Assembly (NCBI RefSeq): GCF_007989825.1
Contig: NZ_BJUA01000015.1
Location: 1-64,000, forward strand
Reading direction: 5' to 3'
Origin: Cellulomonas persica
GTDB lineage: Bacteria > Actinomycetota > Actinomycetes > Actinomycetales > Cellulomonadaceae
Length of the DNA: 64,000 nt
The notes beneath the pieces are model-generated. The model was not told the DNA's origin and searched no databases. It worked only from the letters and a program-made list of their open reading frames with translations. Positions 239 to 26,818 of this stretch are shown in pieces. Position 1 is the first letter of the stretch; each line of letters starts with the position of its first letter. The translations under genes were made by a program, and so were the position numbers.

Positions 239-652
239 GTGGCCGGCAGCCTGCGGATCGAGGATCTGGACGTCCTGAAGCAGCAGGTCAGCGCACTGCT
301 GACCCAGTTCGACGAGGTCGAGGCTGCGACCACCAAGACGACCCGCGTGCGCGTCAACCAGGACAGCTCGACCTGGTCGCCGTTCCCCGCCGCCACGCAG
401 TTCGCGGCGGTCTACCGCGCTCAGATCGCCAAGATCGAGAACGACCTGCGCACCATCCGCACCGAGCTGGAGAACATGCGCACCGCGCTCGACAAGGGAG
501 CGGCGGACCTCGAGGCCACGGAGGCCGAGGTCGCGGCGATCTTCAGCCGGCTCAACACCATCGCCGAGGAGGGCGCACCCGCGCCGACCCCGGGCCCGTA
601 CCTGCCCGGCCGTCCCCCGATGCCCACGGACGGCAACCGGGTGGCCTGGTGA
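239..652 (+). CDS. WXG100-superfamily-like helical protein of the type VII locus
   Basis: This 137-residue protein is nearly all alpha-helical: helix one at about residues 5-40, a break containing SSTWSPF, then a long helix at about 50-108 with leucine/alanine heptads, and a proline-rich tail. That hairpin plan resembles WXG100/ESAT-6 or the larger type VII partner proteins, although no exact W-x-G is seen. The GTG start is preceded by GGGGGG at 230-235 with 3-base spacing. Its stop overlaps the GTG of the mycosin gene (GTGA), so the two are translationally coupled. It is likely a secreted substrate or structural partner; the exact role is not known. Confidence 0.65.
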   Translation: MAGSLRIEDLDVLKQQVSALLTQFDEVEAATTKTTRVRVNQDSSTWSPFPAATQFAAVYRAQIAKIENDLRTIRTELENMRTALDKGAADLEATEAEVAAIFSRLNTIAEEGAPAPTPGPYLPGRPPMPTDGNRVAW

Positions 653-2007
653 ACCGACTGCGAGCCGCGGCCTGCGGACTCGGTGCGGGACTGCTCCTGG
701 TCGCGGTGCCCGTGCAGGCCACCGCGACCACCTCCACCGACCCCGACGACGGTCTGTGGTACTTCACGAAGACCCAGACGGCCGAGCGGCACGAGACGAC
801 GACGGGCAAGGGCGTCCAGATCGCGGTCATCGACACGGCGATCAACCCGGACGTCCCGGAGCTGCAGGGCGTCGATCTCCACGTGCGCGAACCGTCGTAC
901 TGCGCGGCGCAGGCCGGGGGCACGGCGATGCCCGCGGCGGCCGACGACCCCGCGGCCGCGCACGGCACGGGCATGGTCTCCCTGATCGTCGGCAACGGGA
1001 AGGGCATCGGCGGCGAGCGAGGCCTGCTCGGGATCGCCCCCGACGCCGAGGTCCACTTCTACGCGAACATGACGCTGCCCGCGGATGCCGACGTGCGATG
1101 CCCCCAGACCGCCTACGACCCGGACGCGGGCGTGGACACCGGCTGGTTCGCGCGGGCGATCGACCAGGCGGTGGCCGACGGCGCCGACATCATCTCGATC
1201 TCGCTGGGTGTCTCATTGCCCCTCGACGCACCCGCGGTCGCGCGTGCGCTGCACGCCGGCGTCGTGATCGTGGCCGCGGAACCCGACGACGACACCGGGT
1301 ACCCCGCGCGGCTCAACGGCGTCGTCGGGGTGGACTCGATCGGCCCGGACGGTCAGGTGTGGCAGGGCGCCGGCGGCGGCAAGGTCGTCGCGCCCGGCGA
1401 GCAGATCCGCGCCTTCACCGAGGAGTTCGACGGCTACCACCTCACGAACGGCTCCTCGAGCGCGACCGCGTACACGGCTGGTGCGCTGGCCCTGGTCTGG
1501 TCCGCCTACCCCGACGCCACCGCCAACCAGATCCTGCAGACGCTCGTGCGCAACACCGACGGTGAGGACCACGAGCTGTACTTCGACGAGAAGTACGGCT
1601 ACGGCGTGGTGAACGTCCGGCACATGCTCGAGCACGACCCGACGACGTACCCCGACGAGAACCCGCTGCTCTCCGACGACCCCGACGCCGTCCCGAGCAT
1701 CGCCGAGATCGCCGACCCCACGCCGCTCGCGGCGGCGACGCCCAGCGAAGCTCCCACAGCCGCCCCGAGCGGCGAGCCGACCAGCGCGACGAGCGAGCAG
1801 CCCACGCCCGGCGACGACGCCACCGCGGACGACTCCGACTCCACCGTCCCGCTGCTCGTCGGTGCCGCCGCGATCGTCGCGGCGCTCGTCGCGGTCGTCG
1901 GGCTCGCGGTGCGCCGAGCCCGCTCGACGCGCGGCGGAGCAGACGGGGCAGACGCCGCACCACCCACGCACCGACCCGGCCAGGATCCACGACCAGGGGG
2001 ACAGTGA
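649..2007 (+). CDS. mycP: Mycosin-like subtilase (S8) of type VII secretion
   Basis: The protein has 452 residues: a signal peptide (about 1-26), a peptidase S8 domain, a Pro/Thr/Ala-rich linker, and a C-terminal membrane helix (about 400-425) followed by basic residues. This is the layout of mycosins, membrane-anchored proteases of ESX systems. The apparent triad is Asp62 (VIDTA), His105 (AHGTG) and Ser270 (NGSSSA). Where subtilases have AAxGN, this protein reads AAEPD at 209-213, so the oxyanion-hole Asn is replaced by Asp213. The GTG at 649 was chosen over upstream in-frame ATGs because it begins the signal peptide and overlaps the preceding stop codon. Confidence 0.88.
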   Translation: MNRLRAAACGLGAGLLLVAVPVQATATTSTDPDDGLWYFTKTQTAERHETTTGKGVQIAVIDTAINPDVPELQGVDLHVREPSYCAAQAGGTAMPAAADDPAAAHGTGMVSLIVGNGKGIGGERGLLGIAPDAEVHFYANMTLPADADVRCPQTAYDPDAGVDTGWFARAIDQAVADGADIISISLGVSLPLDAPAVARALHAGVVIVAAEPDDDTGYPARLNGVVGVDSIGPDGQVWQGAGGGKVVAPGEQIRAFTEEFDGYHLTNGSSSATAYTAGALALVWSAYPDATANQILQTLVRNTDGEDHELYFDEKYGYGVVNVRHMLEHDPTTYPDENPLLSDDPDAVPSIAEIADPTPLAAATPSEAPTAAPSGEPTSATSEQPTPGDDATADDSDSTVPLLVGAAAIVAALVAVVGLAVRRARSTRGGADGADAAPPTHRPGQDPRPGGQ

Positions 2008-2008
2008 C

Positions 2009-3376
2009 ATGACCGACACCCAGGCGGCCGAGCTCGCCAAGACGCTGCAGGCCGACGTCAGCGCCGCGCTCGCCGACGCGGCGGACCTCGAGGCGCTGCA
2101 GGAGCCCCTGCAGGCGGTGAGCACGACGCTGAAGCGCATGTCGAGCGACCTCGGGCTCGAGGGTCTGTCCGGTGACGCGGCCAAGGAGAGCCTCGCGAAG
2201 GTCGCGAAGGCGATGCTCGGCCGCGTCGACGCGCTCGTCGGGATCGCCGGCATCGCCAAGGAGGCGGCGACGACGATCGCTGCCGCGCAATCGGCCTACC
2301 ACGACCTCCCCCGCGGGTACCTGACCTACACCGAGCGCCAGCGCCTGATCGAGGCCGGCTCGACCACGGGTCTGCCGTACATCGAGGCCGGGCTCGCCGC
2401 TGCACGCGAGGACGCCGCCGCGACGGCCGTCGCGGCCGCGGCGACCACGCTCGGGGAGCTCACCAAGCAACTCCCCGAGGCCGCGGACCACTACCGCGAG
2501 GACACGCCAGGGGGCAGCTCGCCGGGCAGCGGTCCCGGGTCCCGCACTCCGTCCCCGTACGTCCCGCCGGGCACGCGACCGCCGTCGTCGTACGTGCCGG
2601 GGACCCCGCCACCCTCCGGTGGAGAGGACGACCCGCGGAACCCCGGCGACCGCGACCCGTACGACCCCGGACCGGTCACCCCGCAGCCGCCACCCCCGGG
2701 CGACGACGGCCGGACCCCTCCTGGTGAGGACCCGGACGTCCCCGGACCCGACGACCCGCGGTGGCCCGGCCCCGGTGACGACGACGACACGCACGGCGAC
2801 GACCGGCCCGGCGACGGCACGGTGTACGGGCCGAACCCGGTCACCGGCGGCCCCGTCGGCGGTGGCGGCGGTGGCGGGACCGGGGGGAGCCCCTCGCTGG
2901 GCTCGCACCCCGGTCTGGGCAGCTCCACCTCCGGACCCGGTGGCGGCGGTGCGGGTGGCGCCGCTGGCGGTGCGCTCGCGGGCGGCGTCGCCGTCGGTGG
3001 CACGGCGCTCGGGGCCTTCGGTGCCGCGCGGTTCGGCGGCGGTGGCACGGCCGGTCTCGGTGGTGCCGCCGCGGGCCAGCTGGGTGGCGCCGTGCTCGGG
3101 GGGTCGACGGGTGCGGCCGGGGCGGCGGCCGGCGGCGCCCGTGGTGCGGTGACCGGTGGCCGCGGAGCGCCCGCAGGCATGATGGGTGGCGCGATGGGCG
3201 GTGCCGGGGGTGCCGGCAAGGACGCCAAGCGTCGCGCCGGCTCGCTCGGCTACCTCGCGCCCGAGCTCGAGGACGAGGAGGCGCCCACAGCACGCGCGAC
3301 GGGTCTCAACCGCGGCTCGCGCGCCGACGCGCCCAAGGTCGCGGTCGACGCCGCGGAGGACGACGAGACCTGGTGA
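2009..3376 (+). CDS. Large Gly/Pro-rich protein of the type VII locus, candidate secreted substrate
   Basis: This 455-residue protein is not assignable to a named family. Residues 1-165 are helical and Ala/Leu/Glu-rich, reminiscent of the helical N-termini of type VII substrates. Residues about 170-290 are Pro/Asp/Gly-rich, and about 290-400 almost pure Gly/Ala/Val. The last 50 residues return to charged sequence containing GYLAPELEDEEAP and end in DDETW. No signal peptide or convincing membrane helix is seen. ATG 2009 follows the mycosin stop by one base and has the binding site CAGGGGG. Its place directly after the mycosin suggests a surface or secreted protein cleaved or exported by the system; this is inference. 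Confidence 0.7.
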   Translation: MTDTQAAELAKTLQADVSAALADAADLEALQEPLQAVSTTLKRMSSDLGLEGLSGDAAKESLAKVAKAMLGRVDALVGIAGIAKEAATTIAAAQSAYHDLPRGYLTYTERQRLIEAGSTTGLPYIEAGLAAAREDAAATAVAAAATTLGELTKQLPEAADHYREDTPGGSSPGSGPGSRTPSPYVPPGTRPPSSYVPGTPPPSGGEDDPRNPGDRDPYDPGPVTPQPPPPGDDGRTPPGEDPDVPGPDDPRWPGPGDDDDTHGDDRPGDGTVYGPNPVTGGPVGGGGGGGTGGSPSLGSHPGLGSSTSGPGGGGAGGAAGGALAGGVAVGGTALGAFGAARFGGGGTAGLGGAAAGQLGGAVLGGSTGAAGAAAGGARGAVTGGRGAPAGMMGGAMGGAGGAGKDAKRRAGSLGYLAPELEDEEAPTARATGLNRGSRADAPKVAVDAAEDDETW

Positions 3377-3404
3377 CCTCCGCACGCGCCTGAACGACAC
3401 GCCC

Positions 3405-3435
3405 ACGGGGCGGCACCCGCACGGTGCCGCCCCGT
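3405..3435. terminator. Bidirectional terminator hairpin between convergent genes
   Basis: A perfect 13-bp inverted repeat (ACGGGGCGGCACC at 3405-3417, its complement at 3423-3435) with a 5-base loop lies between the plus-strand Gly/Pro-rich gene and the minus-strand RDD-FHA gene. Confidence 0.7.
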
Positions 3436-3534
3436 TCGCGTCGGGACAGCAGTTGCGGTCTCGACGAGGCGCGCGCCGGTACGCCCGAGGCGACCGGGAC
3501 ACCGGTCGGTGCGGCGCGTCGGCCGCATGGCGCG

Positions 3535-4857
3535 TCAGCCGAGCTGCTCGACGAGCACCGTGCGGTCTCCGAGGCGGATCGTCGAGCCGCTGGGCACGTA
3601 CGTCGGCCGCTCGGGCTCGACGACCACGCTCTGCCCCGACGGCAGCACGGTGACCGTGCCGTTCCCCGAGCCGGCGTCGGCCACCCAGAACCCGCGCGCG
3701 TCGATGCCGAACCGCGCGTGCGTGCGTGACAACGACCGCTGCGGGTCGTCGATCGTCACGACGTGGTCGCAGCGCTCGCCGTCCCGGGGACGTGGCGCAC
3801 GGCCCATGACGCCCGGACCGCTCACGCTCATCGCCTCGCCCGTGTCGAGCGTCAGCACGAACGTGCGTGGCCGGGTGACGGCCTGCGGCACCGGCGGGTG
3901 CGGCGGCGTCGAGGCGAACCCCGGCACCGGTCCACCCGAGAGCGACCCGGCGGCCCCACCGCCGTACGGTGTCGCACCCGGCGTCGGCACGGCGCCCTGC
4001 CCGGCGACGCCGGTCAGGACGGGCGCGGCGCTCGGCACGGCTGCGCCGACCGGCACCGGAGCGCCGACCGGGACGGAGGCAGCGCCACGCACCGTCGGGT
4101 CCGTCTGAAGACCGGCCCGAGCCCCTGCCTGCACGGCCGCCCCGTGCGCGGCCAGGCCCGCGCCGGACGTGTCACGAGGCCCGCGGACGTCCACGACGAC
4201 CGCGCGGCCCGCCTTGTCGTGCCAGCCCTGACGCAGCGGACCGCGGTCCGCCCCGACGGACCCCACGACGACCCACTGCCCGACCCCGGCCACGAGGTGG
4301 CCTCCCAGGAGCACGAGCGCGCGCGAGACCGACCGGGCGAGCCCGGGCGCGTACGGCGACTCCTCACGCGCGGCTCGCAGCCCGAGCAGGAGGTTGCCGA
4401 CCGTGCGGCCCGTGCGCGCCTCCCAGACGACCAGGCCGATCGCGAGCTCGGCGGCGACGAGCGCGGCGAGCACGGCGTTGCGTGTCGCGGCGACGACGGC
4501 CGCGGCGGCCAGGGCCACGGCGAGGGTGTCGAGCGCGAACGCACCGAGTCGCGCTCCGACGCGGGCGGTCCGCACGCCGTCGAACGCCGCACCGAGCGCA
4601 CCGGGGGCGCCGGACGCGCCGGCGGCGCCGGGCTGGGCCGACGGACGGCCCGGGGCCGCCACGGCACGCGACCGGGTCTGGGGGCGCGGGGCCCGCCGGG
4701 ACCGGCCGCCGCCTGCGCCGCCCCGCGCGGAGGTCCGGCGCGTCGGCGGCTGCGCCTCGACGACGATCATCGGCGCCGCGGGCGCACCGCAGCCGGTGCA
4801 GAACCGCGCCCCCTCGCGCAGCGGTCGACCGCATGCCCCGCACGTCAGCTCACTCAT
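3535..4857 (-). CDS. Zinc-ribbon/RDD/FHA membrane protein (copy 1)
   Basis: The 440-residue protein has a Cys4 zinc ribbon at residues 5-25 (CGACG then CTGCG), a basic linker, an RDD-type transmembrane region (about 90-240, with QGWHDKAG near its end), a Pro/Ala/Gly linker, and a C-terminal FHA domain (about 345-440) keeping MGR, SRTH and GNGT, the residues that bind phosphothreonine. It could recruit a phosphorylated partner to the membrane. The ATG overlaps the EccD stop (ATGA), so it is co-translated with that secretion protein. A paralogue lies at 10634-12820. FHA proteins occur in several type VII loci, but this fusion's role is not known to me. Confidence 0.85.
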   Translation of the reverse strand: MSELTCGACGRPLREGARFCTGCGAPAAPMIVVEAQPPTRRTSARGGAGGGRSRRAPRPQTRSRAVAAPGRPSAQPGAAGASGAPGALGAAFDGVRTARVGARLGAFALDTLAVALAAAAVVAATRNAVLAALVAAELAIGLVVWEARTGRTVGNLLLGLRAAREESPYAPGLARSVSRALVLLGGHLVAGVGQWVVVGSVGADRGPLRQGWHDKAGRAVVVDVRGPRDTSGAGLAAHGAAVQAGARAGLQTDPTVRGAASVPVGAPVPVGAAVPSAAPVLTGVAGQGAVPTPGATPYGGGAAGSLSGGPVPGFASTPPHPPVPQAVTRPRTFVLTLDTGEAMSVSGPGVMGRAPRPRDGERCDHVVTIDDPQRSLSRTHARFGIDARGFWVADAGSGNGTVTVLPSGQSVVVEPERPTYVPSGSTIRLGDRTVLVEQLG

Positions 4858-6245
4858 CAGCCCACCATTCCTCGCAGCACGCCGACCAGGCCGGACGCGA
4901 CGACCGACGCGGGCAGCGCCAGCACGACGGCCAGCCCCTCGATCCCGTCGGCGAACCGGGACGCCACCACCGAGTGCCACCCGCGCGCGAGCGCTGCGGC
5001 GACGGCCGCGACCAGGGCGCCGAGCACGAGCGCGCCGACCGCGGCGACCACGCGCCAGGCGGGCGGCACGGCGAGGCCCGCCTCGAGCAGCACGAGCCCG
5101 GCCGCGAGCCGCGGCAGCCACCGGCCCGCGATGCCGCGTGACGCGCGCGGCACGAGCACGAACGCCAGGACGACGCACACGAGCAGCACGACCGCGCCCC
5201 ACCGGTCGACCGACCCGCGCTCGGGTGCCGCCAGGACACCCGGGGCGAGGAGCACGGTCGTCGCGCACGCCAGCGCCACCGCCGTCGTGACGCGACGTTC
5301 CGCGCCGTCGACGGTCCGCGCGACGAGCCGTGCGCTCACCCGGCCGAGCGCACGGGGCCGCGGCGAGCGCACCGACTCGGCCGTGCGCGCGACCTGCGAG
5401 ACGTCGACGAGCTGCTCGTCGGGGATCGCGAGGGCCACGCGCGGCGCAGCGCGCAGCACGAGAGGAGCGAGTCCGACGAGCAGCGCGGGGCCGACCTGCT
5501 GCGGCAGGTCGAGCAGGAGCGTGCCGGACTGCACGGAAGCGGCGACGACGAGCGCGCCGAGCACCACGACGGCCTCGTCGTCCCCGGCCCGCAGCGCCCG
5601 CGTGACGACCGCGCGGAGCCCGGCGACGACGGTCGCGCAGACGAGGGCGACGACGACCGCGAGCCGACGCTGCTCGGAGGTCTCCGGCAGCGTCGCCCAC
5701 GCCCCCGCCGCCGCGGCGAGCACCGGTGCGGCGAGCGTCGCGACGACCGCGGCCACTCCCGCGGTCCCCCGGCCGGTGCGGCCGGTCCCGGCGACGACGA
5801 GCGCGAGGAGCGCGAGCACGCTCGTCGTCCCGGTGGAGGCTGCCGCGGGAAGGTCCGCCACGGGCCCCGCCATCGCCATCAGCAGCAGGACCGCACCGAG
5901 CGCTCCCGCGAGCGCGAGGAGGCCCGCCTGAGGCCGAGGACGACGCGCGAGCACCTCAGGGTCGACCTCGCGACGGCCGCGCGGTCGCGGCGCGGGCCGG
6001 ACGACGTGCAGCGCGGCACCGTCCTCGACGAGCGCGCCCACCGCCGCCCGCACGTCCATCGGCCGGCCGGCCGAGTCCAGGACGAGCGTGCCGGGGACGT
6101 CGAGCGGCACGAGCGCGGCGCGCAGCGCGTCGGCCAGGACGACGTCGCGGCGCAGGGCGACGTGGCGCTGCTCGGTACCGACCGCGACGACGAGCCGCAC
6201 GTGTGCCTGGGACGCGGTGGTCGCGGGCGCGGCGGATGCCGTCAC
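4857..6245 (-). CDS. eccD: EccD-like type VII secretion integral membrane protein
   Basis: The 462-residue protein starts with an approximately 85-residue ubiquitin-like (YukD) fold (HVRLVVAVGTE to ALHVV), then a basic linker and about eleven hydrophobic helices. This is the EccD plan, the channel-forming subunit of actinobacterial ESX systems. GTG 6245 was chosen because AGGGGAGG sits five bases upstream; an ATG 24 codons further upstream would add a disordered extension. The gene is divergent from eccC and coupled to the downstream RDD-FHA gene. Confidence 0.82.
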   Translation of the reverse strand: MTASAAPATTASQAHVRLVVAVGTEQRHVALRRDVVLADALRAALVPLDVPGTLVLDSAGRPMDVRAAVGALVEDGAALHVVRPAPRPRGRREVDPEVLARRPRPQAGLLALAGALGAVLLLMAMAGPVADLPAAASTGTTSVLALLALVVAGTGRTGRGTAGVAAVVATLAAPVLAAAAGAWATLPETSEQRRLAVVVALVCATVVAGLRAVVTRALRAGDDEAVVVLGALVVAASVQSGTLLLDLPQQVGPALLVGLAPLVLRAAPRVALAIPDEQLVDVSQVARTAESVRSPRPRALGRVSARLVARTVDGAERRVTTAVALACATTVLLAPGVLAAPERGSVDRWGAVVLLVCVVLAFVLVPRASRGIAGRWLPRLAAGLVLLEAGLAVPPAWRVVAAVGALVLGALVAAVAAALARGWHSVVASRFADGIEGLAVVLALPASVVASGLVGVLRGMVG

Positions 6246-6317
6246 GACCACCTCCCCTGGTGTGCTGCCTGGTACGGACCTCGTCGGACGGTGGGCGACC
6301 GGGGCGCCACCGCCCAC

Positions 6318-6355
6318 ATGCTACGGGTCCGGATCGCCCGGCTTGCCGGTAGCGT
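6318..6355. promoter_or_regulatory. Divergent promoter region between eccD and eccC
   Basis: TAGCAT on the minus strand (6323-6318) and TAGCGT on the plus strand (6350-6355) are plausible -10 boxes pointing to eccD and eccC. Shared placement suggests the two core secretion genes are co-regulated. No clear operator is seen. Confidence 0.35.
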
Positions 6356-6402
6356 TGCGCCGTCTGTCGAACACCGGCACCCGCCGGGCAGCAGGGAGTC
6401 CC

Positions 6403-9400
6403 ATGTCGATCGTCGCCGACCGGAACGTGCAGGCCGGCCCTCCGCCCGTCCCGACGGGCCAGGTCGTGATGCAGCCGCCGCCCGAGATCCAGCCGTCCGA
6501 CGGCGTGAGCGGCGTCCTGTCGAACCTCGTGCCGATGCTCGGGTCCGTCGGGTCGATCGTGTTCATCGCGATGTCCCAGCCCGGTGGGCGCGGGATGATC
6601 GCAGGCGGCATGTTCCTCGTCGCCTCGCTCGGGTTCGTGGCGGTCAACGGCTGGCGCCAGCGCGCCCAGCACCAGGCGACGGTCGTCGGCGCGCGACGCG
6701 AGTACCTGGCCTACCTCGCTGACCTGCGCCGCACGGTCCGGCAGGCCGCCCGCGCGCAGCGGCGTGCGGCGCAGTGGTACGCGCCCGAGCCGGGCGCGCT
6801 GCCGGCGGTCGCCGAGGAGCGCACGCGCGCGTGGGAGCGCACGCCCGACCACCCCGAGTTCCTGCGGGCTCGCCTCGGCACGGGCGCGCAGCAGCTCTCG
6901 CTGCGCCTCGAGGCACCGCAGACCCCGCCCCTCGCGCAGCTCGACCCGGTCGCCGCCTCGGCCGCGCACCGGTTCCTGGTGACGCACCGCGTGCAGCAGG
7001 ACATCCCACTGTCGGTCGACGTGCGCAGCGCGGCGCGCATCGAGGTCGCGGGCGCCGAGCAGGAGGCCCGGGCGCTCGCGCGCGCGGTCGTCGCCCAGCT
7101 CGCGACGTTCCACTCCCCCGAGCGGCTGCAGATCGCCGTGCTCGCGAGCGAGCGCGCGATGCCGGCGTGGGACTGGGTCAAGTGGCTGCCGCACGCGCAC
7201 TCGACGCGCGAGCGCGACGCGGTGGGCCCCGCCCGCATGATCGGCACGACCCTCGCCGAGATCGAGGGGCTGCTCCCCGAGGGCCTCGCCGACCGGCCGC
7301 GCTTCGGCCCCGCGGCGCCCGGCTCGACACCCACGCCGCACGTCCTCGTCGTCGTCGACGGCGGGCACGTGCCGGTCGGCAACGGCATCCTCACGTCCGA
7401 CGGCGTGCTCGGCATCACCGTGCTCGAGCTGCCCGAGCACTGGGAGGACCTCGAGGACCCGAACGTCCTGCGCTTCCTGCTGGGCGCCGCGCTGCCCGAC
7501 GGCGGCGTGCCCGTCGAGGTGCTGCGCGTCGGGCTCGAGCCGACGCGCCTCAAGGGCGACCAGCTCTCCGTCCCCGAGGCGGAGGCGACCGCGCGCCGCC
7601 TGCTGCCGCTGTTCGTCGACGCCGGGCCGCAGCGCACCGACGGCCAGGTCTCCGCCGAGCTCGTCGACCTGCTCGGACTGGGCGACGTGCGCGACCTCGA
7701 CCTCGCACGCGCGTGGCGACCCCGCCTGCCGCGCGACCGCCTCCGCGTCCCGATCGGCCTGACGCCGCAGGGCCAGCCCGTCGCGCTCGACATCAAGGAG
7801 TCCGCGCAGCAGGGCATGGGCCCGCACGGCCTCATCATCGGCGCGACCGGGTCCGGCAAGTCCGAGGTGCTCCGCACGCTCGTGCTGGCGCTCGCGCTCA
7901 CGCACTCCTCCGAGGACCTCAACTTCGTCCTCGTCGACTTCAAGGGCGGTGCGACGTTCGCGGGCATGGCGGACATGCCGCACGTCTCCGCGATCATCAC
8001 CAACCTCGGCGAGGAGCTCACGCTCGTCGACCGCATGCAGGACGCGCTGCAGGGCGAGATGGTGCGCCGCCAGGAGCTCCTGCGCGCCGCGGGCAACTTC
8101 GCGAACGTCGCGGACTACGAGAAGGCCCGGCGCACCGACCGGCCCGACCTGCAGCCGCTGCCCGCGCTGCTCATCGTGTGCGACGAGTTCTCCGAGCTGC
8201 TGTCCGCCAAGCCCGAGTTCGTCGACCTCTTCGTCGCGATCGGGCGGCTCGGCCGCTCGCTCCAGATGCACCTGCTGCTGTCCAGCCAGCGCCTCGAGGA
8301 GGGGCGTCTGCGGGGCCTGGAGTCGCACCTGTCGTACCGGATCGGTCTGCGCACGTTCTCCGCGGCCGAGTCCCGCACGGTCCTCGGCGTGCCCGACGCC
8401 TACGAGCTGCCGCCGGTCCCGGGCGTCGGCTTCCTCAAGCCCGACCCGACGACGATGATCCAGTTCCGCGCCTCCTACGTGTCCGGGCCGCCGCCCGCGC
8501 GACGACGCACCGCGGTCGGTGGCGTGGGGCCCGTCGCCACCGGACGCGCGCGCCTCGAGTCGTTCACGGCCGCGCCCGTGCTGTCGGCCACACCCGCGCG
8601 CGACGAGCCCGACGAGCCGTTCGAGGACGACCAGGAGAAGCGCGCGACGTTCGACATCGCGGTCTCGCTCATGGCCGGCCGCGGTCCCGCCGCGCACCAG
8701 GTCTGGCTGCCGCCGCTCGTCGTGCCCGAGACCTACGACCGGCTCATGCCGGACCTCACGGTCGACCCCGCGCTCGGCCTGGTGTCGCCGGGCTGGCGCG
8801 CGGCCGGGCCGCTGACCTTCCCGCTCGGGATCGTCGACCGGCCGCTCGAGCAGCGTCGCGAGAACCTCACCGTGTCGCTCGCGGGCGCCGGCGGGCACAT
8901 GGCCGTCGTCGGCGGTCCGCGCTCGGGCAAGAGCACCGCGCTGCGGTCCGTCGTGACCGGCCTGGCGCTCACCCACACCCCGCTCGAGGTGCAGTTCTAC
9001 GTGCTGGACTTCGGCGGCGGCACATTCACGCCGATCGGCGGCCTGCCGCACGTCGCGGGCATCGGCACACGCGCCGAGCCCGACGTGGTGCGCCGGATCG
9101 TCGCCGAGGTCGAGGGCATCGTCGACGCGCGTGAACGGTACTTCCGCGCGCACGGGATCGACTCGATCGAGACGTACCGCCAGCGCCGCGCGGCGGGGCA
9201 GGTCGACGACGGGTACGGCGACGTCTTCCTCCTCGTCGACGGCTGGTCGACCGTGCGCGCCGAGTTCGACGAGCTCGAGCCGCGCCTGCAGGCGCTCGCC
9301 GGGCGTGGCCTGACGTTCGGCATGCACCTGCTGGCCGCCGCGAGCCGCTGGATGGACTTCCGCACGCAGGTCAAGGACCTGTTCGGCACGCGACTCGAGC

Positions 9401-10374
9401 TGCGCCTCGGTGACCCGACGGACTCCGAGCTCGACCGCAAGGTCGCCGCCGCGGTGCCGCGCGACCGTCCCGGGCGCGGCATGGTCGTCTCCAAGCACCA
9501 CGTCCTGACCGCGCTGCCGCGCGTCGACGGCGACGGCTCGGCCGACACCCTCGGCGCCGGCGTGCAGCACCTCGTGCAGTCCGTCGCGCAGTCGTGGCAC
9601 GGCGCGCCCCCGCCCAAGTTGCGCCTGCTCCCCGAGCAGGTCGCGCTCGACGAGCTGCGCGCCCGCGCGCCCCGCGCCCCCGGGCTCTTGCTCGGCATCG
9701 ACGAGGCCGCGCTCGCGCCCGTGGTGCTCGACGTGCGCGAGGAGCACCACCTGTACGCGTTCGGCGACTCCGGCGCGGGCAAGTCCGGGCTGCTGCGGCT
9801 CGTCGCCCGCGAGATCCAGCGCCTGCACACCGCGCAGGAGGCGCAGATCATCGCGGTGGACTTCCGCCGCGCGCTGCTGGGCGAGATCCCCGACGAGTAC
9901 CTGACGAGCTACCTGACGACGCACGAGCAGGCCGGTGCCGAGATCTCCGAGCTCGCCGCGTACCTGCGTGGGCGGCTCCCCGGCCCCGACGTCACACCCG
10001 AGCAGCTCCGCGCCCGCTCGTGGTGGTCGGGCGCCGAGGTGTACGTGCTCGTCGACGACTACGACCTCGTCGCGACGTCGGCGGGCAACCCGCTCGCGGC
10101 GCTGGTGCCGTTGCTCGCGCAGGCCAGCGACGTCGGGCTGCACCTGGTCCTGACGCGACGCACGGGTGGCGCCTCGCGCGCGCTGTTCGACCCCGTCGTG
10201 CAGGCGCTGCGCGACCTCGCCGCGCCCGGCATCGTGATGTCGGGCAGCCCCGACGAGGGTGCGCTCGTCGGCTCGGCGCGGCCCGTCGCGTCCGTGCCGG
10301 GGCGCGCTCAGCTCGTGACGCGCGACGCGGGCCTGCAGGTCGTCCAGCTCGCCTGGACGCCCTCCACGACCTGA
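6403..10374 (+). CDS. eccC: EccC-type FtsK/SpoIIIE ATPase, motor of type VII secretion
   Basis: The protein has 1323 residues, the length of a fused EccCa-EccCb. Two N-terminal membrane helices (about 38-90) anchor it. Three FtsK-like ATPase domains follow, with Walker A motifs GATGSGKS near residue 480, GGPRSGKS near 837 and GDSGAGKS near 1121; Walker B-like ALLIVCDE, VFLLVDG and VYVLVDDY are also present. All three lysines are intact, so all sites may bind ATP. ATG 6403 has GCAGGGAG upstream. A hairpin overlaps the stop codon, so the gene appears to be its own unit. Confidence 0.95.
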   Translation: MSIVADRNVQAGPPPVPTGQVVMQPPPEIQPSDGVSGVLSNLVPMLGSVGSIVFIAMSQPGGRGMIAGGMFLVASLGFVAVNGWRQRAQHQATVVGARREYLAYLADLRRTVRQAARAQRRAAQWYAPEPGALPAVAEERTRAWERTPDHPEFLRARLGTGAQQLSLRLEAPQTPPLAQLDPVAASAAHRFLVTHRVQQDIPLSVDVRSAARIEVAGAEQEARALARAVVAQLATFHSPERLQIAVLASERAMPAWDWVKWLPHAHSTRERDAVGPARMIGTTLAEIEGLLPEGLADRPRFGPAAPGSTPTPHVLVVVDGGHVPVGNGILTSDGVLGITVLELPEHWEDLEDPNVLRFLLGAALPDGGVPVEVLRVGLEPTRLKGDQLSVPEAEATARRLLPLFVDAGPQRTDGQVSAELVDLLGLGDVRDLDLARAWRPRLPRDRLRVPIGLTPQGQPVALDIKESAQQGMGPHGLIIGATGSGKSEVLRTLVLALALTHSSEDLNFVLVDFKGGATFAGMADMPHVSAIITNLGEELTLVDRMQDALQGEMVRRQELLRAAGNFANVADYEKARRTDRPDLQPLPALLIVCDEFSELLSAKPEFVDLFVAIGRLGRSLQMHLLLSSQRLEEGRLRGLESHLSYRIGLRTFSAAESRTVLGVPDAYELPPVPGVGFLKPDPTTMIQFRASYVSGPPPARRRTAVGGVGPVATGRARLESFTAAPVLSATPARDEPDEPFEDDQEKRATFDIAVSLMAGRGPAAHQVWLPPLVVPETYDRLMPDLTVDPALGLVSPGWRAAGPLTFPLGIVDRPLEQRRENLTVSLAGAGGHMAVVGGPRSGKSTALRSVVTGLALTHTPLEVQFYVLDFGGGTFTPIGGLPHVAGIGTRAEPDVVRRIVAEVEGIVDARERYFRAHGIDSIETYRQRRAAGQVDDGYGDVFLLVDGWSTVRAEFDELEPRLQALAGRGLTFGMHLLAAASRWMDFRTQVKDLFGTRLELRLGDPTDSELDRKVAAAVPRDRPGRGMVVSKHHVLTALPRVDGDGSADTLGAGVQHLVQSVAQSWHGAPPPKLRLLPEQVALDELRARAPRAPGLLLGIDEAALAPVVLDVREEHHLYAFGDSGAGKSGLLRLVAREIQRLHTAQEAQIIAVDFRRALLGEIPDEYLTSYLTTHEQAGAEISELAAYLRGRLPGPDVTPEQLRARSWWSGAEVYVLVDDYDLVATSAGNPLAALVPLLAQASDVGLHLVLTRRTGGASRALFDPVVQALRDLAAPGIVMSGSPDEGALVGSARPVASVPGRAQLVTRDAGLQVVQLAWTPSTT

Positions 10375-10399
10375 CCCGCCGCCACCGGCCCGGCGGGTC
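10373..10399 (+). terminator. Terminator hairpin overlapping the eccC stop
   Basis: GACCCGCCG at 10373-10381 pairs perfectly with 10391-10399 across a 9-base loop. The left arm contains the last bases of the eccC stop codon. Confidence 0.5.
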
Positions 10400-10428
10400 C
10401 GGCGACGGTCGGGCGCCAGTCCGACGCC

Positions 10429-10522
10429 GGTTCGTCGGTCCGGCGTCGGAGGTCGGTCCGGCGTCGGTTCGTCGGTCCGGCATCGGTTCGTCGGTCCGAC
10501 GCCGGGTCGTCGGCTCGCGGCG
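10429..10522. repeat. Degenerate 18-19 bp tandem repeat between eccC and the second RDD-FHA gene
   Basis: Four clear copies and one weaker copy of a GGTTCGTCGGTCCGGCGTC-like unit run head to tail (copies begin at 10429, 10448, 10466, 10485 and 10504). The repeat sits in the 259-base gap between convergent genes, where nothing else is evident beyond the eccC terminator. The array itself can form several GC-rich hairpins. Confidence 0.75.
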
Positions 10523-10633
10523 ACGAAACGACGCCGGGACGACGAACAGCCGCGCGGAGGCGACGAACGGGTACTTGCGGGTGGCTGACCCGTCACCGTT
10601 CAGGAGGGCAGCGGGCCTCGGTGGTGGCGGTGG

Positions 10634-12820
10634 TCAGCGGCTCTCGACGTGGACGGTGCGCTCGCCGAGGCGCAGCGACCAGCCGACCGTGACGACCGCA
10701 CGCATCCCGGCGGGCAGCGCGGCGGCGGCGCCGTCCGGGCGCACGACGACGGTGCCGTTGGTCGAGCCGCGGTCCACGACCCAGAGCTCGCCGGGTGCGG
10801 CCAGGCCGAACGCGAGGTGCGTCTTCGACAGCGAGCGTGCGGGGTCGTCGATCGAGACCTTGTGCTCGGCGTCGCCCTGCGGGTCGCGGCCGACGAGGCC
10901 GTCGCCGACGACGTCGACGCGCTCACCGGTGTCGAACGCGAGCCGCAGGCCCTGCGGGACCGGCGCGATCCCGGTCGCGGGCGTGCGCAGCCGCGTCAGC
11001 TCGATCTCGTCGAGCTCCTCGACCCCCCACCGCACGGACGTGACGTCGGGCGTGGCGGCCGGGCGCGGGTCGTCGGCGCGGTGCCGGTCGGTCGCGGTCG
11101 GGGGCGCGGAGACCGGGTCCGCGAGCGGGTGGACGGCGGGCTGCGGGAGGACCGCCTGCGCGCCGGTGGCCGGGTGGTGACCCTCGGGCCCGCTGACGCC
11201 AGCACCCTGCTCGTCGCGCGACGCCCCGGCCGGGGAGCCGATGACCTGCTCGTGCCCCGACGGAGGGGTGTCGCCGAGGGTCCGTACCGAGAGCGTGTCG
11301 CCCGCGAGCGGCTCGGACGTGCCCGTGGACGGGGTCGTCGGGGTCTGCGGACCCGACGATCCCGGGAAGCCCGTGATGAGCGGCCCGGACGCCTGCTGCG
11401 ACGGACGACCCGTCCCTACCCCGGGAGGCAGCGGGACGAGCCCGATGGTGGGCGGGACGTCGATCTCCGGCGTGCCGGGGGTCGTCGCGCCGGGTGTGCT
11501 CGCGGTCGCTGCACTCGTCGTCGGGAGCGGTGCGGCGTGCGTCGGGGCGGCGGAGTCGGACCCGGCGGAGGCCGCCGCGGGTGTGCCGGGGCTCGTCGCC
11601 CCTTCCCCGGCCGGTGCCGCCGGAGGCTCCGGGGCGGTCGGCGCGGCCGGCACGACGCCGGGCCCGGCCGCCGCGGGGACCGGAGACGGCGCCGACGACG
11701 GCGGCGGGGGCGGCGGCGGCGGGACCGGCCCGACCGCACGCGCGACGGCCTGGTCCCATGCCCGCGACGGGTCCTCGGCGCGCGCGACACCCGTCGCGCT
11801 CGCCAGCAGGACGATCGTGCCGGCCGCCTTGTCGTGCCAGCCGCGTTGCGCGGGCGACTTGTCGAAGACGCCGGACGACACGACGAGCCACTCGCCGACG
11901 AAGCACACGACGTAGCCCAGGCTGACGACGAGCTGCCGCAGCAGGATGCGCAGCAGGCCGGCGGGGCGACCGGTCTGCGCCGAGACGGTCCGGATGCCCA
12001 GGAGCGCGCCGCCGAGCGTCGCGCCCGTGATCGACTCGCTGATCCACAGCGCGATGCCGCCGAGGCCGACGAGCACCGACGGGACGAACGACGACGCGAC
12101 CGACGAGGGGCTCACCTCGGGCTCGCCCGACGTGGCGAGCATGATCACGACGCCGATACCCCCCAGGAGCATGAGCCCCGCGGCGTCGATCGCGAACGCG
12201 GCGACCCGGCGCCCCACCGGCGCGACGCTGCCAGGCACGACGGGGAAGGTCTCGCCGACCCGGACGGCCGACCGCGTGCCCGGCTCGCCCGGCGCACGGG
12301 AGGCGGGCGCCGGGGGCCCCGCAGCACCGGCCGCAGCAGGGGCGGGCCCGGCGGGCGCCGGACGAGCGAGACCGGACGCAGCGGCCGGCGGCGCAGCGCT
12401 GGTCGGTGCAGCGCTGGTCGGCGCAGCGCTCGTCGGGCCGGTGCCCGGCGGCGCCGCGGCCGGGGGCGGCGGGTACGCGCCCGAGGCACTGGCCGGGGGC
12501 GGCGGGTACGCATCGGCATCACCCGCCGGGGGCGGCGGGTACGCAGCGGCTGCGCCGGCCGGGGGCGGCGGGTAGGTACCCGGCGACACGGGTGCCGCGT
12601 GCGGGCCGGGGGCCGGCTGCGTCGTGGCGTACGGGCCGGGCGCTGGCGCGACGGGGCCCGACGACGGGACGGGCGGCAGCGGCGTGTACGGCGCGGCCGC
12701 GTGCGGGTAGGGCACGACGGGTGCGGGCGGCACCGCCGTGACGCGCGCACCGCACTCGGCGCAGAACATCGCACCGCTGTCGAGCTCGGCACCGCACGTG
12801 CTGCACTTCTGGGCGCTCAC
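10634..12820 (-). CDS. Zinc-ribbon/RDD/FHA membrane protein (copy 2)
   Basis: This 728-residue paralogue of the 3535-4857 gene has the same order: Cys4 zinc ribbon (CSTCG, CAECG), a long Pro/Ala/Tyr linker, an RDD membrane region (about 195-340, also with QRGWHDKAAG), a second very long Pro/Ala/Thr linker, and a C-terminal FHA domain with VGRD, SKTH and STNGT. The linkers are about 290 residues longer in total. Start is GTG with a GAAGGGG-like site upstream. The pair flanks the EccD/EccC core, which suggests two alternative phospho-dependent adaptors; this is inference. Confidence 0.85.
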   Translation of the reverse strand: MSAQKCSTCGAELDSGAMFCAECGARVTAVPPAPVVPYPHAAAPYTPLPPVPSSGPVAPAPGPYATTQPAPGPHAAPVSPGTYPPPPAGAAAAYPPPPAGDADAYPPPPASASGAYPPPPAAAPPGTGPTSAAPTSAAPTSAAPPAAASGLARPAPAGPAPAAAGAAGPPAPASRAPGEPGTRSAVRVGETFPVVPGSVAPVGRRVAAFAIDAAGLMLLGGIGVVIMLATSGEPEVSPSSVASSFVPSVLVGLGGIALWISESITGATLGGALLGIRTVSAQTGRPAGLLRILLRQLVVSLGYVVCFVGEWLVVSSGVFDKSPAQRGWHDKAAGTIVLLASATGVARAEDPSRAWDQAVARAVGPVPPPPPPPPSSAPSPVPAAAGPGVVPAAPTAPEPPAAPAGEGATSPGTPAAASAGSDSAAPTHAAPLPTTSAATASTPGATTPGTPEIDVPPTIGLVPLPPGVGTGRPSQQASGPLITGFPGSSGPQTPTTPSTGTSEPLAGDTLSVRTLGDTPPSGHEQVIGSPAGASRDEQGAGVSGPEGHHPATGAQAVLPQPAVHPLADPVSAPPTATDRHRADDPRPAATPDVTSVRWGVEELDEIELTRLRTPATGIAPVPQGLRLAFDTGERVDVVGDGLVGRDPQGDAEHKVSIDDPARSLSKTHLAFGLAAPGELWVVDRGSTNGTVVVRPDGAAAALPAGMRAVVTVGWSLRLGERTVHVESR

Positions 12821-12961: not shown

Positions 12962-13969
12962 TCAGGACGCGCGGTCGACGAGGGCGTCGGCGAACGAGAC
13001 CAGCGCGGACTTCACCGGGCCCTCGGGCAGCGGGTCGAGCACGCGCACGGCGTCCATCGCGAGCGCGACGGCCCGCTCACGCGTCAGGGCGACGACGCGG
13101 TGCTCACGCAGCGCGGCGACGGCCGTCAGCAGAGCGGCGTCGTCGGTCAGGTCGCCGTCGAGCAGCGCGAGGACCGCGCGGTCCTCGTCGGTCGCGTCCG
13201 GGCTCGCACACAGCTCGCGCAGGAGCAGCACGGGCATGGTGGGCACGCGCTCGCGCAGGTCGGTGCCGGGGGTCTTGCCCGTCAGCGAGCCGTCGGCGGT
13301 CAGGTCGATCACGTCGTCGGCGAGCTGGAACGCGACGCCGATGCGCTCGCCGAACTCCGTCACGGTGCTCACGACGGCCGGCGGGCACCCGGCGAACATC
13401 GCGCCGAGGCGTGCCGAGGTCGCGAGCAGCGAGGCGGTCTTGTCGGCGAGCACCTGCAGGTAGTGCGCGACGGGGTCGTCGCCCTCGCGCGGGCCGACGG
13501 TCTCGTGCAGCTGGCCGAGGCACAGCCGCTCGAACGTGCGCGCCTGGATCCGCACGGCCTCGGGGCCGAGCCCCGCGACGGTCGTGGACGCGCGCGCGAA
13601 CAGCAGGTCGCCGGTGAGGATCGCCACCGAGTTGCCCCACACCTCGTGCGCGGAGGGCGCGCCGCGGCGCAGCGGGGCGGAGTCCATGACGTCGTCGTGG
13701 TAGAGCGTCGCCAGGTGCGTGAGCTCGACGACGACGGCCGCGTCGACGACCTCACGCCGCGCACCGTCACCGAGCTCGGCCACGAGCAGGGTCAGCAGCG
13801 GGCGCAGGCGCTTGCCGCCCGCGTTGACGAGGTGCCGTGAGGCGTCGTCGGCCAGCGCGTCGGCGTGCGCGACCGTGTCCCGCAGCGCCTCCTCCACGAG
13901 GGCGAGGCGGGCGGTCAGGCGATCAGCGAGGGCCGGGTCGGCCAGCGGGATGGCCGCGGTCGAAGTCAC
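12962..13969 (-). CDS. Long-chain (E)-polyprenyl diphosphate synthase, menaquinone side chain
   Basis: The 335-residue protein condenses isopentenyl diphosphate onto an allylic diphosphate. The first Asp-rich motif DDVMD is at 92-96 and the second, DDVID, at 218-222; GGKRLRP near residue 51 binds diphosphate. No bulky residues block the site just before the first motif, consistent with a long product such as a heptaprenyl to nonaprenyl chain. It sits next to nuo and the men genes, so it most likely makes the menaquinone tail. The GTG start has TAGGTT six bases upstream and appears leaderless, separate from the nuo operon. Confidence 0.92.
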   Translation of the reverse strand: MTSTAAIPLADPALADRLTARLALVEEALRDTVAHADALADDASRHLVNAGGKRLRPLLTLLVAELGDGARREVVDAAVVVELTHLATLYHDDVMDSAPLRRGAPSAHEVWGNSVAILTGDLLFARASTTVAGLGPEAVRIQARTFERLCLGQLHETVGPREGDDPVAHYLQVLADKTASLLATSARLGAMFAGCPPAVVSTVTEFGERIGVAFQLADDVIDLTADGSLTGKTPGTDLRERVPTMPVLLLRELCASPDATDEDRAVLALLDGDLTDDAALLTAVAALREHRVVALTRERAVALAMDAVRVLDPLPEGPVKSALVSFADALVDRAS

Positions 13970-14057: not shown

Positions 14058-15836
14058 TCAGGGCAGGAACCGCGCGACGTCGGAGATGAGGTCGAGCACG
14101 GGTGTCGGGAAGACGCCGAGCACGACGGTGACGAGCGCGCAGACCCCGATCGCCACCGCGGCGAGGCCCTCCGACGGCACGACCGTGGTGGTCGTCGTCG
14201 GGGCGGACGGCTCGACGAGGGTCGCGACGGCGGTCGTGCCGCCCTCGGTCGCGAGCGCGACGTCGGTGCCCTCGGCAGCCGCGGGCTCGGCCGCAGCCGG
14301 CGTGCCGGCGGCCGTGGCCGGCACAGCGCCCTCCTGGGTGGCCTCGTGCGCGGCGGGCGTGAAGTACATGAGCACGATGATGCGCACGTAGAAGAACGCG
14401 GCGGCGGCCGAGCTCAGGACACCCACGAGCGCGAGCGGCCACGCGCCGCCTTCGACGGCCGCGGAGAACACCGCGAACTTCCCGATGAACCCGGCGGTGA
14501 GGGGGATGCCCGCGAACGACAGCAGGAACAGCGCGAACGCGCCGGCCAGGACCGGGCTCGTGCGACCGAGCCCCGCCCACTGCGACAGGTGTGTCGCCTC
14601 GCCGAGCACCGTGGTGCGCAGGTCCCCGCCCTCGTCGTCGGCGAGCGTGTTGTCGTCGCCGTCCGCGGCAGCGCCCAGCGGCACGACGCTGCGCTCACGC
14701 ACGAGCCAGACGATGCCGAACGCACCGATCGTCGCAACGCCGTAGGCGAGCAGGTAGAACAGCACGGCCGTGATGCCCGCCTCGTCGAGCGCGATCACGC
14801 CCGTGAGCACGAACCCAGCGTGCGCGATCGAGGAGTACGCGAGCAGGCGCTTGATGTCCGTCTGCACGAGCGCGACGACCGTGCCGAGCACCATCGTCGC
14901 GATCGCGACGGTCCACAGCAGCACGTCGAGGTCCCACTGCAGGCCCGGGAACACCGTGTAGTACACGCGCAGCAGCGCGCCGAACGCGGCGATCTTGGTG
15001 CAGGCGGCCATGAAGCCCGTGATGGGCGTGGGAGCGCCCTGGTAGACGTCCGGGGTCCACGCGTGGAAGGGCACCGCGCCGACCTTGAAGAGCAGGCCGA
15101 CGAGCAGCAGCACCGAGCCGACGAGCAGGAGCCCGTCGAGCGACGACGGGTCGCCGACGGCGACGGCGATCTCCGCGTAGCGCAGCGAGCCGGAGTACCC
15201 GTAGAGCAGCGCGACGCCGAAGATCAGCAACGCGGACGCGAACGCCCCCAGCAGGAAGTACTTGAGCGCGGCCTCCTGCGACAGCAGGCGACGGCGGCGG
15301 GCCATGCCGGTGAGCAGGTACAGCGGCAGCGACAGGACCTCGAGCGCGACGAACAGCGTGAGCAGGTCGCCCGTCGCGGGCAGGATCATCATGCCGCCGG
15401 TCGCCAGGAGCAGCAGCGGGTAGACCTCGGTCTGCGTGATGCCCTTGCTGCGGGCGAGCTCCTCGTACTCGGAGCCGGGCACCGACGCGGCGGTCGGCGC
15501 GAACGCGTCCTCGCCGGTCGCGGTGCGGTCGGCCACCACGAGCAGCGCGAGCAGCGTGAGCACGGCGATCGCGCCCTGCAGCACCAGCGTCGGTCCGTCG
15601 ACGAGCAACGAGCCGTCGAGCACGTCGTGCCCGCCGTCCGACTTCACGCCGCTCCACAGCGCGGCGACGGCGACGATCGAGCCGACGAGCGCGCCGAACG
15701 TCAGCGTCAGCTGCACGGGGCGGCGCGCACGGTCCGGCACGAACGCCTCGGCGAGCACGCCGAGCACGCCGGCCGCGAGCACGATCAGCACGGGCGACAG
15801 CGCGCCCCACGCGATGTCCGGTGCGGTGAAGCTCAC
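14058..15836 (-). CDS. nuoN: NADH-quinone oxidoreductase subunit N
   Basis: This antiporter-like proton-pumping membrane subunit of complex I has about 14 hydrophobic helices and the core proton-channel signature around the LPLYLL and PFHAWTPDVYQG segments. At 592 residues it is longer than most NuoN (about 480-530). The extra length is an Asp/Gly-rich loop near residues 380-400 and an Ala/Thr/Glu-rich insert near 495-560 before the last helix. The GTG start overlaps the nuoM stop by four bases. It is the last gene of the operon. Confidence 0.95.
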   Translation of the reverse strand: MSFTAPDIAWGALSPVLIVLAAGVLGVLAEAFVPDRARRPVQLTLTFGALVGSIVAVAALWSGVKSDGGHDVLDGSLLVDGPTLVLQGAIAVLTLLALLVVADRTATGEDAFAPTAASVPGSEYEELARSKGITQTEVYPLLLLATGGMMILPATGDLLTLFVALEVLSLPLYLLTGMARRRRLLSQEAALKYFLLGAFASALLIFGVALLYGYSGSLRYAEIAVAVGDPSSLDGLLLVGSVLLLVGLLFKVGAVPFHAWTPDVYQGAPTPITGFMAACTKIAAFGALLRVYYTVFPGLQWDLDVLLWTVAIATMVLGTVVALVQTDIKRLLAYSSIAHAGFVLTGVIALDEAGITAVLFYLLAYGVATIGAFGIVWLVRERSVVPLGAAADGDDNTLADDEGGDLRTTVLGEATHLSQWAGLGRTSPVLAGAFALFLLSFAGIPLTAGFIGKFAVFSAAVEGGAWPLALVGVLSSAAAAFFYVRIIVLMYFTPAAHEATQEGAVPATAAGTPAAAEPAAAEGTDVALATEGGTTAVATLVEPSAPTTTTTVVPSEGLAAVAIGVCALVTVVLGVFPTPVLDLISDVARFLP

Positions 15837-17374: not shown

Positions 17375-17382
17375 CGCTCTCC

Positions 17383-19386: not shown

Positions 19387-19396
19387 GCGCGCTCCC

Positions 19397-22875: not shown

Positions 22876-22876
22876 C

Positions 22877-25476: not shown

Positions 25477-25480
<4 letters not shown>
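22877..25480 (-). CDS. nuoG: NADH-quinone oxidoreductase subunit G
   Basis: The 867-residue iron-sulfur subunit of the NADH module has an N-terminal plant-type 2Fe-2S domain ([15 protein letters not shown]), the His/Cys ligand segment [19 protein letters not shown], a 4Fe-4S pair ([10 protein letters not shown], and CPVG further on), then a molybdopterin-oxidoreductase-like domain that has lost the cofactor. The ATG overlaps the nuoF stop (ATGA). Length is in the usual actinobacterial range. Confidence 0.97.
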
Positions 25481-26817
<1,337 letters not shown>

Positions 26818-26818
26818 C

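Follow-up and report, generated by a model that had tools for sequence, protein, structure and literature searches.

RDD-FHA membrane proteins of two kinds flank eccD and eccC in an ESX-4-like type VII secretion locus of Cellulomonas persica, with a possible role in phospho-signalling

Little is known about how secretion by type VII secretion systems (T7SS) of the T7SSa class is turned on. For several of the classes T7SSc to T7SSj there are published FHA components, kinases and PPM phosphatases (PMC11217815), and for T7SSa we found no kinase, phosphatase or FHA part described, a dedicated phospho-reader included, nor any FHA-RDD part, in the open-licence literature as far as its titles and abstract openings tell. 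Here we describe a T7SSa locus of Cellulomonas persica (genome of 3.66 Mb in 44 contigs) in a window, meaning the whole 64,000-nucleotide stretch analysed, that covers bases 1-64000 of contig C15, and in which two membrane proteins with FHA domains, RDD1 and RDD2, stand on either side of eccD and eccC. We put the chance at roughly one in two that a phospho-signalling layer has been added here to an ESX-4-like T7SSa, with RDD1 as a phosphothreonine reader and RDD2 as a switch of the type found in PFNA gene clusters. From sequence, kinase control of this T7SSa is plausible, and the idea is testable because the system is flanked by two membrane proteins with FHA domains.

The closest described systems each share part of this arrangement. 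T7SSd, also from Actinomycetota, comes with TsdD, a Ser/Thr kinase of the membrane, and TsdI, a large immunoglobulin (Ig)-like protein of the envelope with 1654 amino acids (PMC11217815). The two recall the PFNA cluster discussed below, with its kinase and its giant Ig/cadherin/FN3 protein. The FHA of T7SSd, however, is part of the ATPase TsdC, a protein that clusters with EssC, whereas here a canonical T7SSa EccC without FHA is accompanied by EccB, EccD and mycosin. TsdC/TseC retain the phosphothreonine consensus (PMC11217815). In T7SSe, T7SSf and T7SSj a separate FHA component, TsxJ, accompanies the secretion system, as here, with TsfJ anchored in the membrane by two helices and with PPM phosphatases (PMC11217815); these are systems of Bacillota, however, with an N-terminal DUF6382 instead of the RDD domain and Cys4 ribbon, and with FHA on the ATPase as well. 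A further likeness is to the ESX-4-like T7SSa of Actinomycetota, whose EccB, fused EccC, EccD and WXG100 pair all recur here, together with mycosin-type subtilases that score under the equivalog cut-off, but with two EccD proteins lacking blastp similarity, added RDD-FHA proteins and a PP2C phosphatase, none of which is given for T7SSa in the portions of PMC11217815 drawn on; the terms RDD, Micrococcales, Cellulomonas, Microbacterium, DUF58 and zinc have no occurrence in its text. Elsewhere, EspM, an FHA transcription factor, provides another FHA link, to ESX-1 (PMC7002343), and in M. tuberculosis less ESAT6 is secreted when the substrate CFP10 carries a phosphomimetic change (PMC10653824); these two papers, like PMC4925161, PMC6733907, PMC8430577 and PMC6803598 below, are cited from excerpts. 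The central features of the locus, in window coordinates, are the following.

3535..4857, minus strand: RDD1, 440 amino acids, a proposed regulatory subunit of T7SSa, with Cys4 ribbon, RDD membrane domain, Pro/Ala linker and FHA (Pfam, FHA residues, predicted model, place beside EccD across the order)
3538..3855, minus strand: FHA of RDD1 (Pfam, alignment, profile search, model, Foldseek)
4207..4566, minus strand: RDD domain of RDD1 (Pfam)
4780..4845, minus strand: Cys4 zinc ribbon of RDD1 (Pfam just under cut-off; alignment; predicted local distance difference test, pLDDT, 73-86)
4857..6245, minus strand: eccD, divergent (PF19053, 6.8e-8), its stop overlapping the RDD1 start by one base
6403..10374, plus strand: eccC, a fused EccCa-EccCb ATPase of 1323 amino acids (TIGR03924, 5.3e-276; TIGR03925, 1.5e-254; Pfam), without FHA match
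10634..12820, minus strand: RDD2, 728 amino acids, with Cys4 ribbon, RDD, very long Pro/Ala linkers and FHA, of the PFNA-type subfamily (Pfam, tree, model of low mean confidence)
10637..10948, minus strand: FHA of RDD2 (Pfam, whole-genome scan, profile search, model)
10994..10996, minus strand: codon of Thr609 of RDD2, preceding R610, in an [LIV]-E-x-T-R linker motif restricted to the RDD2/RDD3/f6 group; proposed phosphorylation site
11819..12226, minus strand: RDD domain of RDD2 (Pfam)
12743..12805, minus strand: Cys4 zinc ribbon of RDD2 (PF13240, 9e-7, over cut-off)

A sequence-only reading of this DNA had proposed the order Cys4 ribbon, RDD, Pro/Ala linker, FHA for both proteins, and Pfam bears it out, with further support for the FHA from profile searches and the RDD1 model. 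RDD1 matched RDD at 5.2e-8 and FHA at 1.2e-6 (29.3 bits, cut-off 20.7), its zinc ribbon (3.4e-5, 23.9 bits) falling slightly below the cut-off of 25; RDD2 matched RDD at 1e-16 along with its ribbon, and its FHA (0.0015, 19.3 bits), slightly below 20.7 at first, was above cut-off in a whole-genome scan. Structurally, a profile from eight such FHA domains had its best matches among solved structures in the FHA domains of DgcB, GarA and OdhI (6hc1, 8.8e-8; GarA, 2.5e-6; OdhI, 6.8e-6), the RDD1 model has pLDDT above 90 across the FHA, and the matches listed by Foldseek for that model include the FHA structures of FhaA, GarA and OdhI. The Cys4 ribbon occurs in 14/14 RDD1-type proteins of the window's family versus 4/26 elsewhere, and was rejected as a defining feature outside that family. 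Functionally, the Arg, Ser, His and Asn positions that we take to be the phosphothreonine contacts are R353, S377, H380 and N399 in RDD1, where they align without exception (12/12 sequences), and R645, S665, H668 and N688 in RDD2; the corresponding pattern (Arg, Ser, His, Asn-Gly) is kept in 65 of the 70 FHA matches at EccC loci. The possibility that these residues would fail to align is thus not what the alignments gave; both pockets look intact, and phosphothreonine binding is predicted for each.

The secretion system is a genuine T7SSa. The identity of EccC is certain, with both TIGR03924 and TIGR03925 over cut-off, and it has no FHA match in Pfam or NCBIfam, unlike the T7SSb and T7SSd ATPases with their N-terminal FHA; EccD is divergent yet real (PF19053, 32.2 bits against a cut-off of 30), though an NCBIfam search returned no match. 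A congener's EccB, used as query, had a single match in the C. persica genome, on contig C21, the end of which encodes a WXG100 pair, a second EccD (EccD2), EccB, a second mycosin and a PP2C phosphatase, in an order found in one piece in genome G021; we infer that the start of C15 and the end of C21 are genomic neighbours. There, EccB is over cut-off (TIGR03919, 188.1 bits versus 154; PF05108, 8.8e-61), as are EccD2 (TIGR03920, 106.1 versus 94.95, plus a YukD domain) and both WXG100 proteins, and the mycosin is a clear subtilase just under the equivalog cut-off (TIGR03921, 2.4e-82, 276.9 bits versus 278.75). Because EccB, the second EccD, mycosin and WXG100 pair at the end of C21 complement the EccC and EccD of the window, we regard the system as a T7SSa, and it is ESX-4-like in that the stretches read show no other ESX genes, apart from EccE and EccA, for which no search was made and which some or all types of ESX-4 lack (PMC11217815).

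Genomically, RDD1 is tied to eccD. The RDD1 start and eccD stop share one base (TGATG), which agrees with the translational coupling first read from the window, and four-base overlaps between eccD and an RDD-FHA gene occur in C. gelida (a close relative, its EccC 96% identical in the best segment), Microbacterium L115, G240, G268 and G257 (L193, L212, L213); the coupling is not general, however, as the junction is a gap in the five other congeners where it was inspected. RDD-FHA and eccC open reading frames (ORFs) overlap by four bases in Microbacterium L100, Leifsonia L113 and G004. To gauge prevalence we used 396 genomes of the order, 97 of which hold EccC at E<=1e-150, at 105 loci all read at least partly; at 96 of these the stretches run from 3.5 to 20 kb (under 19 kb at 16 of them), and some of the other nine were read over two stretches of up to 32 kb. 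Calls for FHA, RDD, kinase, PP2C and PFNA genes came from home-made hidden Markov models seeded from this order (the FN3G model from two proteins, one in L113), so that diverged members elsewhere can be missed. FHA was found at 58/105 EccC loci, 34/64 high-scoring and 24/41 lower-scoring (the EccC of G261 is interrupted and its placement among the latter may be wrong), and RDD plus FHA in one ORF at 44/105. At the 96 loci, 48 of the 56 FHA matches lie within 3 kb of EccC and 49/56 within 1.5 kb of an eccD ORF on the same strand, and several families of the order have an RDD1-type gene as the neighbour of eccD. For comparison, among the best 80 of 592 named EccC loci, 74 have no FHA or RDD match (15 of these stretches being under 20 kb, the shortest 5.6 kb); the six with a match are from Microbacterium (3), Leifsonia, Gulosibacter and Cellulomonas, genera that we take to belong to one order, Micrococcales, and the other 74 loci to other orders.

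The architecture itself extends well beyond these loci. A whole-genome search, which scored three candidates per genome and counted part-length matches, found RDD-FHA model matches in 117/299 genomes without and 70/97 with EccC at E<=1e-150, and among the matches listed those spanning both domains come from at least 43 genomes without such EccC versus at least 27 with it. RDD-FHA as an architecture confined to T7SS was therefore rejected, and the caution attached to the original proposal, that the pair might be widespread where type VII genes are lacking, is half borne out. These counts favor a reading in which RDD-FHA proteins serve kinase signalling in general, their position at T7SSa loci reflecting shared regulation or chance clustering rather than contact with the machine; yet the placement of 49/56 matches beside eccD on its strand, the overlap of RDD-FHA ORFs with eccD or eccC across several genera, the well-supported RDD1 clade of the genus and the drop to two strong full-length RDD-FHA loci in congeners that lack T7SSa (both described below) all speak against it, and we consider it quite improbable.

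Evolutionarily, RDD1 and RDD2 are different kinds of protein. In a tree of 57 RDD+FHA proteins (FastTree local supports), the genus RDD1 proteins form one clade (n=12, 0.974) and the RDD2 proteins another (n=13, 0.997), which joins RDD3, the RDD-FHA protein of the PFNA cluster on contig C6 of the same genome, and two proteins of another family, f6 (n=17, 0.972), although RDD2 plus RDD3 without f6 has support of only 0.248. By sequence, then, RDD2 groups with the PFNA-type proteins as a paralogue. An [LIV]-E-x-T-R motif lies 17-33 residues ahead of the FHA in 17/17 members of the RDD2/RDD3/f6 group and in 0/40 others, RDD1 included, where shuffles expect 0.08 per group; a looser [LIVM]-E-x-T within 45 residues is likewise found in 17/17 and 0/40, versus 0.34 and 0.43 expected. 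The idea that the two paralogues are one kind of adaptor in a symmetric pair was accordingly abandoned, as tree and motif separate them. Among the T7SS and PFNA reference proteins scanned for the motif, RDD2 and RDD3 alone had it. For FHA tails that bind their own domain, as in DgcB, GarA and OdhI, hydrophobic residues at -3, +2 and +3, Glu at -2 and Ser at +1 are described (PMC6733907). The RDD2 group agrees at -3 and -2 in 17/17 and, by eye, at +2 in 15/17, and it shares a hydrophobic-Glu-x-Thr in a disordered stretch (in RDD2, residues 574-621 have pLDDT below 50) near an FHA whose nearest solved relatives are these same proteins; RDD2 differs in being a membrane protein with a ribbon and in having Arg at +1. 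The motif thus resembles the GarA/OdhI self-peptide, and self-binding by RDD2 is a proposal that would follow from that resemblance.

Three genomes of the same genus, G181, G276 and G400, lack both an EccB match and an EccC above cut-off, and in each the genes for nuoN, polyprenyl synthase, RDD2 and PP2C remain together. Each has two, not three, strong full-length RDD-FHA loci (weaker, part-length and broken matches aside), the second locus in G276 and G400 lying about 12 kb from a match to the FHA end of the model, like the PFNA cluster of C. persica. Since RDD2 is kept and the strong loci number two, RDD1 goes with T7SSa and RDD2 need not. We infer loss of T7SSa in these genomes rather than gain, the number of losses being uncertain because G181 plus G276 join G008 with tree support of only 0.356 and RDD2 plus RDD3 without f6 has 0.248. 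Their RDD2 proteins (L277, L278, L279) keep RDD, Thr motif and FHA, and lack the Cys4 ribbon that is present in 10/10 T7SSa genomes. EccC-like ATPases that are divergent but full-length (313-370 bits) number one or two in each genome, with weaker ones besides, so these genomes may hold other T7SS types; among such ATPases of relatives, 4/14 carry FHA in the same ORF with the residue pattern kept (L032, L033, L034, L035), and none of the remaining ten (L022-L031) showed an FHA match when scanned. G400, where EccB has no match, has an apparently full-length orphan mycosin (L279:7990-9147) with PP2C on one side and RDD2 on the other.

These genomes raise the possibility of a bystander role for RDD2, which would then belong to a PFNA-like RDD-FHA/PP2C switch of envelope physiology and merely flank T7SSa, leaving RDD1 alone to concern secretion. 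The persistence of RDD2 and PP2C near polyprenyl synthase and nuoN where EccB and over-cut-off EccC are missing fits this account, as does the clustering of RDD2 with RDD3 and two f6 proteins. On the other side, the RDD2 ribbon is missing in those genomes and present in 10/10 RDD2 proteins from T7SSa genomes, the orphan mycosin of G400 sits between PP2C and RDD2, two f6 loci have a motif-bearing RDD-FHA gene near eccC next to a PFNA-type kinase and FHA gene, and the congeners, with their divergent EccC-like ATPases, are not T7SS-free. We hold a bystander role to be a real possibility, though a somewhat doubtful one.

The PFNA cluster is a gene set named in Bifidobacterium (PMC8430577, PMC6803598). 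Contig C6 of C. persica has its likeness, with a kinase, a 2048-residue Ig/cadherin/FN3 protein, a MoxR-type ATPase, DUF58, transglutaminase, PP2C and FHA genes clustered together; it differs in adding RDD3, after the transglutaminase gene, the terms RDD and secretion having no occurrence in the excerpts of those two papers. PFNA-type genes (MoxR, DUF58, transglutaminase, FN3) stand at 7/105 EccC loci (G286, G094, G268, G257, G317, G378, G261) versus 0/74 named loci of other orders; the corresponding adjacency P of 1.3e-4 uses a guessed rate of 1.05% per stretch and related genomes that are not independent. PP2C occurs at 6/105 versus 0/74, and follows the second mycosin in C. persica, G021 and G010, and in G014 after a gap. 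Outside the 105, T7SSa is joined to PFNA-type genes also in Leifsonia L113, where a kinase, a 1997-residue protein, a MoxR-type ATPase and DUF58 lie downstream of eccC, and in G004 (L078); in G240 the ORF of a PFNA-type kinase overlaps the eccC end by four bases, and in G261 an FN3-kinase-FHA series abuts eccC. In all five PFNA-type kinases inspected, HRDxKxxN and DFG are retained and a hydrophobic span is present. At two f6 loci (L226 in G304, L232 in G123), a motif-bearing RDD-FHA gene, a PFNA-type kinase, an FHA gene and PP2C lie near a lower-scoring EccC. A kinase gene alone was tried as a mark of these loci and rejected on the counts given below.

From a mechanistic perspective, RDD1 would be a membrane-anchored phosphothreonine reader that travels with EccD and EccC in this order: its RDD domain may hold it in the membrane near EccD, and its FHA, on a flexible linker, could dock a phosphorylated partner at the ATPase, whereby a Ser/Thr kinase would gate assembly or secretion. 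RDD2, the second, PFNA-type paralogue, would carry a built-in switch, with a kinase phosphorylating Thr609 just before the FHA, the FHA capturing its own phosphopeptide (or RDD1 capturing it) so as to alter what RDD2 can bind, and the PP2C encoded after the second mycosin resetting it. The phosphorylation and binding steps, and any effect on secretion, are conjectural here. The suggestion that such proteins are membrane adaptors linking kinase signalling to secretion keeps its footing in the intact-looking FHA pockets, the FHA at 58/105 EccC loci, the 49/56 placements by eccD and the PFNA-type genes at 7/105 versus 0/74; it loses ground on the kinase, which is not clearly enriched. An FHA protein coupled to EccD/EccC would allow work on this control in a tractable non-pathogen, and would connect PFNA, a cluster that is little understood, with a secretion system. 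More speculatively, and in our estimate improbably, the T7SSa of one whole order might be phospho-gated, with a PFNA membrane kinase, using the giant Ig/cadherin/FN3 protein as surface sensor, phosphorylating Thr609-type sites in RDD2/RDD3, the FHA of EccD-coupled RDD1 reading phosphothreonine at the EccC/EccD gate, and PP2C resetting the system. If true, PFNA and T7SSa would be one signalling-secretion system, split or joined by genome and paralleling the kinase and Ig-protein parts of T7SSd.

Several observations weigh against a phospho-signalling layer. The place suggested for finding a kinase was just upstream of the window, but the window begins at the contig end, and no kinase match lies on C15 or C21; the seven kinases over cut-off in the genome are on C1, C2, C5, C6 and C10. 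Kinases stand near EccC at 6/105 loci here versus 3/74 in other orders. In families f8, f10, f14, f15 and f17, FHA is found at 0/32 EccC loci, so the T7SSa machine need not have it. Five of the 70 FHA matches depart from the residue pattern: family f11 accounts for three, which look degenerate, the match at L239 has the pattern incomplete, and the fifth is truncated where its stretch ends. The RDD2 model has low mean confidence, poor outside the FHA core and ribbon; the Thr motif has Arg, not Ser, at +1 and in most cases lacks the hydrophobic residue at +3. The conserved neighbourhood of RDD2 in congeners without T7SSa belongs here too, as does T7SSb EssC, whose FHA domains lack phosphothreonine residues and are tied solely to protein stability (PMC4925161). 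EssC suggests that RDD1 may be a T7SSa subunit whose FHA is a structural docking module independent of phosphorylation: FHA on or beside the ATPase recurs across T7SS types, that of EssC works without those residues (PMC11217815, PMC4925161), and two RDD proteins of Microbacterium, L104 and L115, have paired FHA domains reminiscent of those in EssC. With 65/70 matches fitting the phosphothreonine pattern and the residues invariant in 12 aligned proteins, however, we think a purely structural role unlikely.

The remaining features lie on either side of the central genes, which were all called with a simple codon-score script.

239..652, plus strand: small helical WXG-like protein, 137 amino acids (gene call; WXG100 match weak, E 0.0098, below cut-off; same-place homologues in congeners), a probable T7SS substrate partner
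649..2007, plus strand: mycosin-type subtilase (Peptidase_S8, 3.7e-29; TIGR03921, 5.9e-42, 144 bits, below the cut-off of 278.75)
2009..3376, plus strand: Pro/Gly-rich protein, 455 amino acids, without family match in Pfam or NCBIfam (a partly similar protein follows the mycosin in some congeners), perhaps PPE/Esp-like to judge by position
12962..13969, minus strand: polyprenyl diphosphate synthase (PF00348, 1.8e-58), a boundary marker outside the system that adjoins RDD2 in T7SSa-less congeners too

Past the synthase, at 14058-30877, come what we take to be ordinary respiratory-complex (nuo) genes. Within the secretion system, one T7SSa thus has two EccD genes, that of the window (4857-6245) and EccD2 (L072:13960-15309), between which blastp yields no alignment; the YukD domain match of EccD2 has no counterpart in the window EccD. 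Other ESX systems use two copies of one EccD, and these two might form a heterodimer. In G004, a 145-residue ORF (L078:4232-4669) with three TDGT(I/L)(V/M) repeats and a C-terminal hydrophobic span lies between mycP2 and PP2C/FHA genes, and the N-terminus of a neighbouring 130-residue FHA protein contains the stretch DIDGTVIVQR; both are possible phosphothreonine docking peptides. Finally, G014 has near-identical mycosin genes in tandem (L038:51-4562 and L079:16424-19998), some starting with the N-terminus of the following Pro/Gly-rich protein, and repeats of this kind may explain the contig break at the start of the window.

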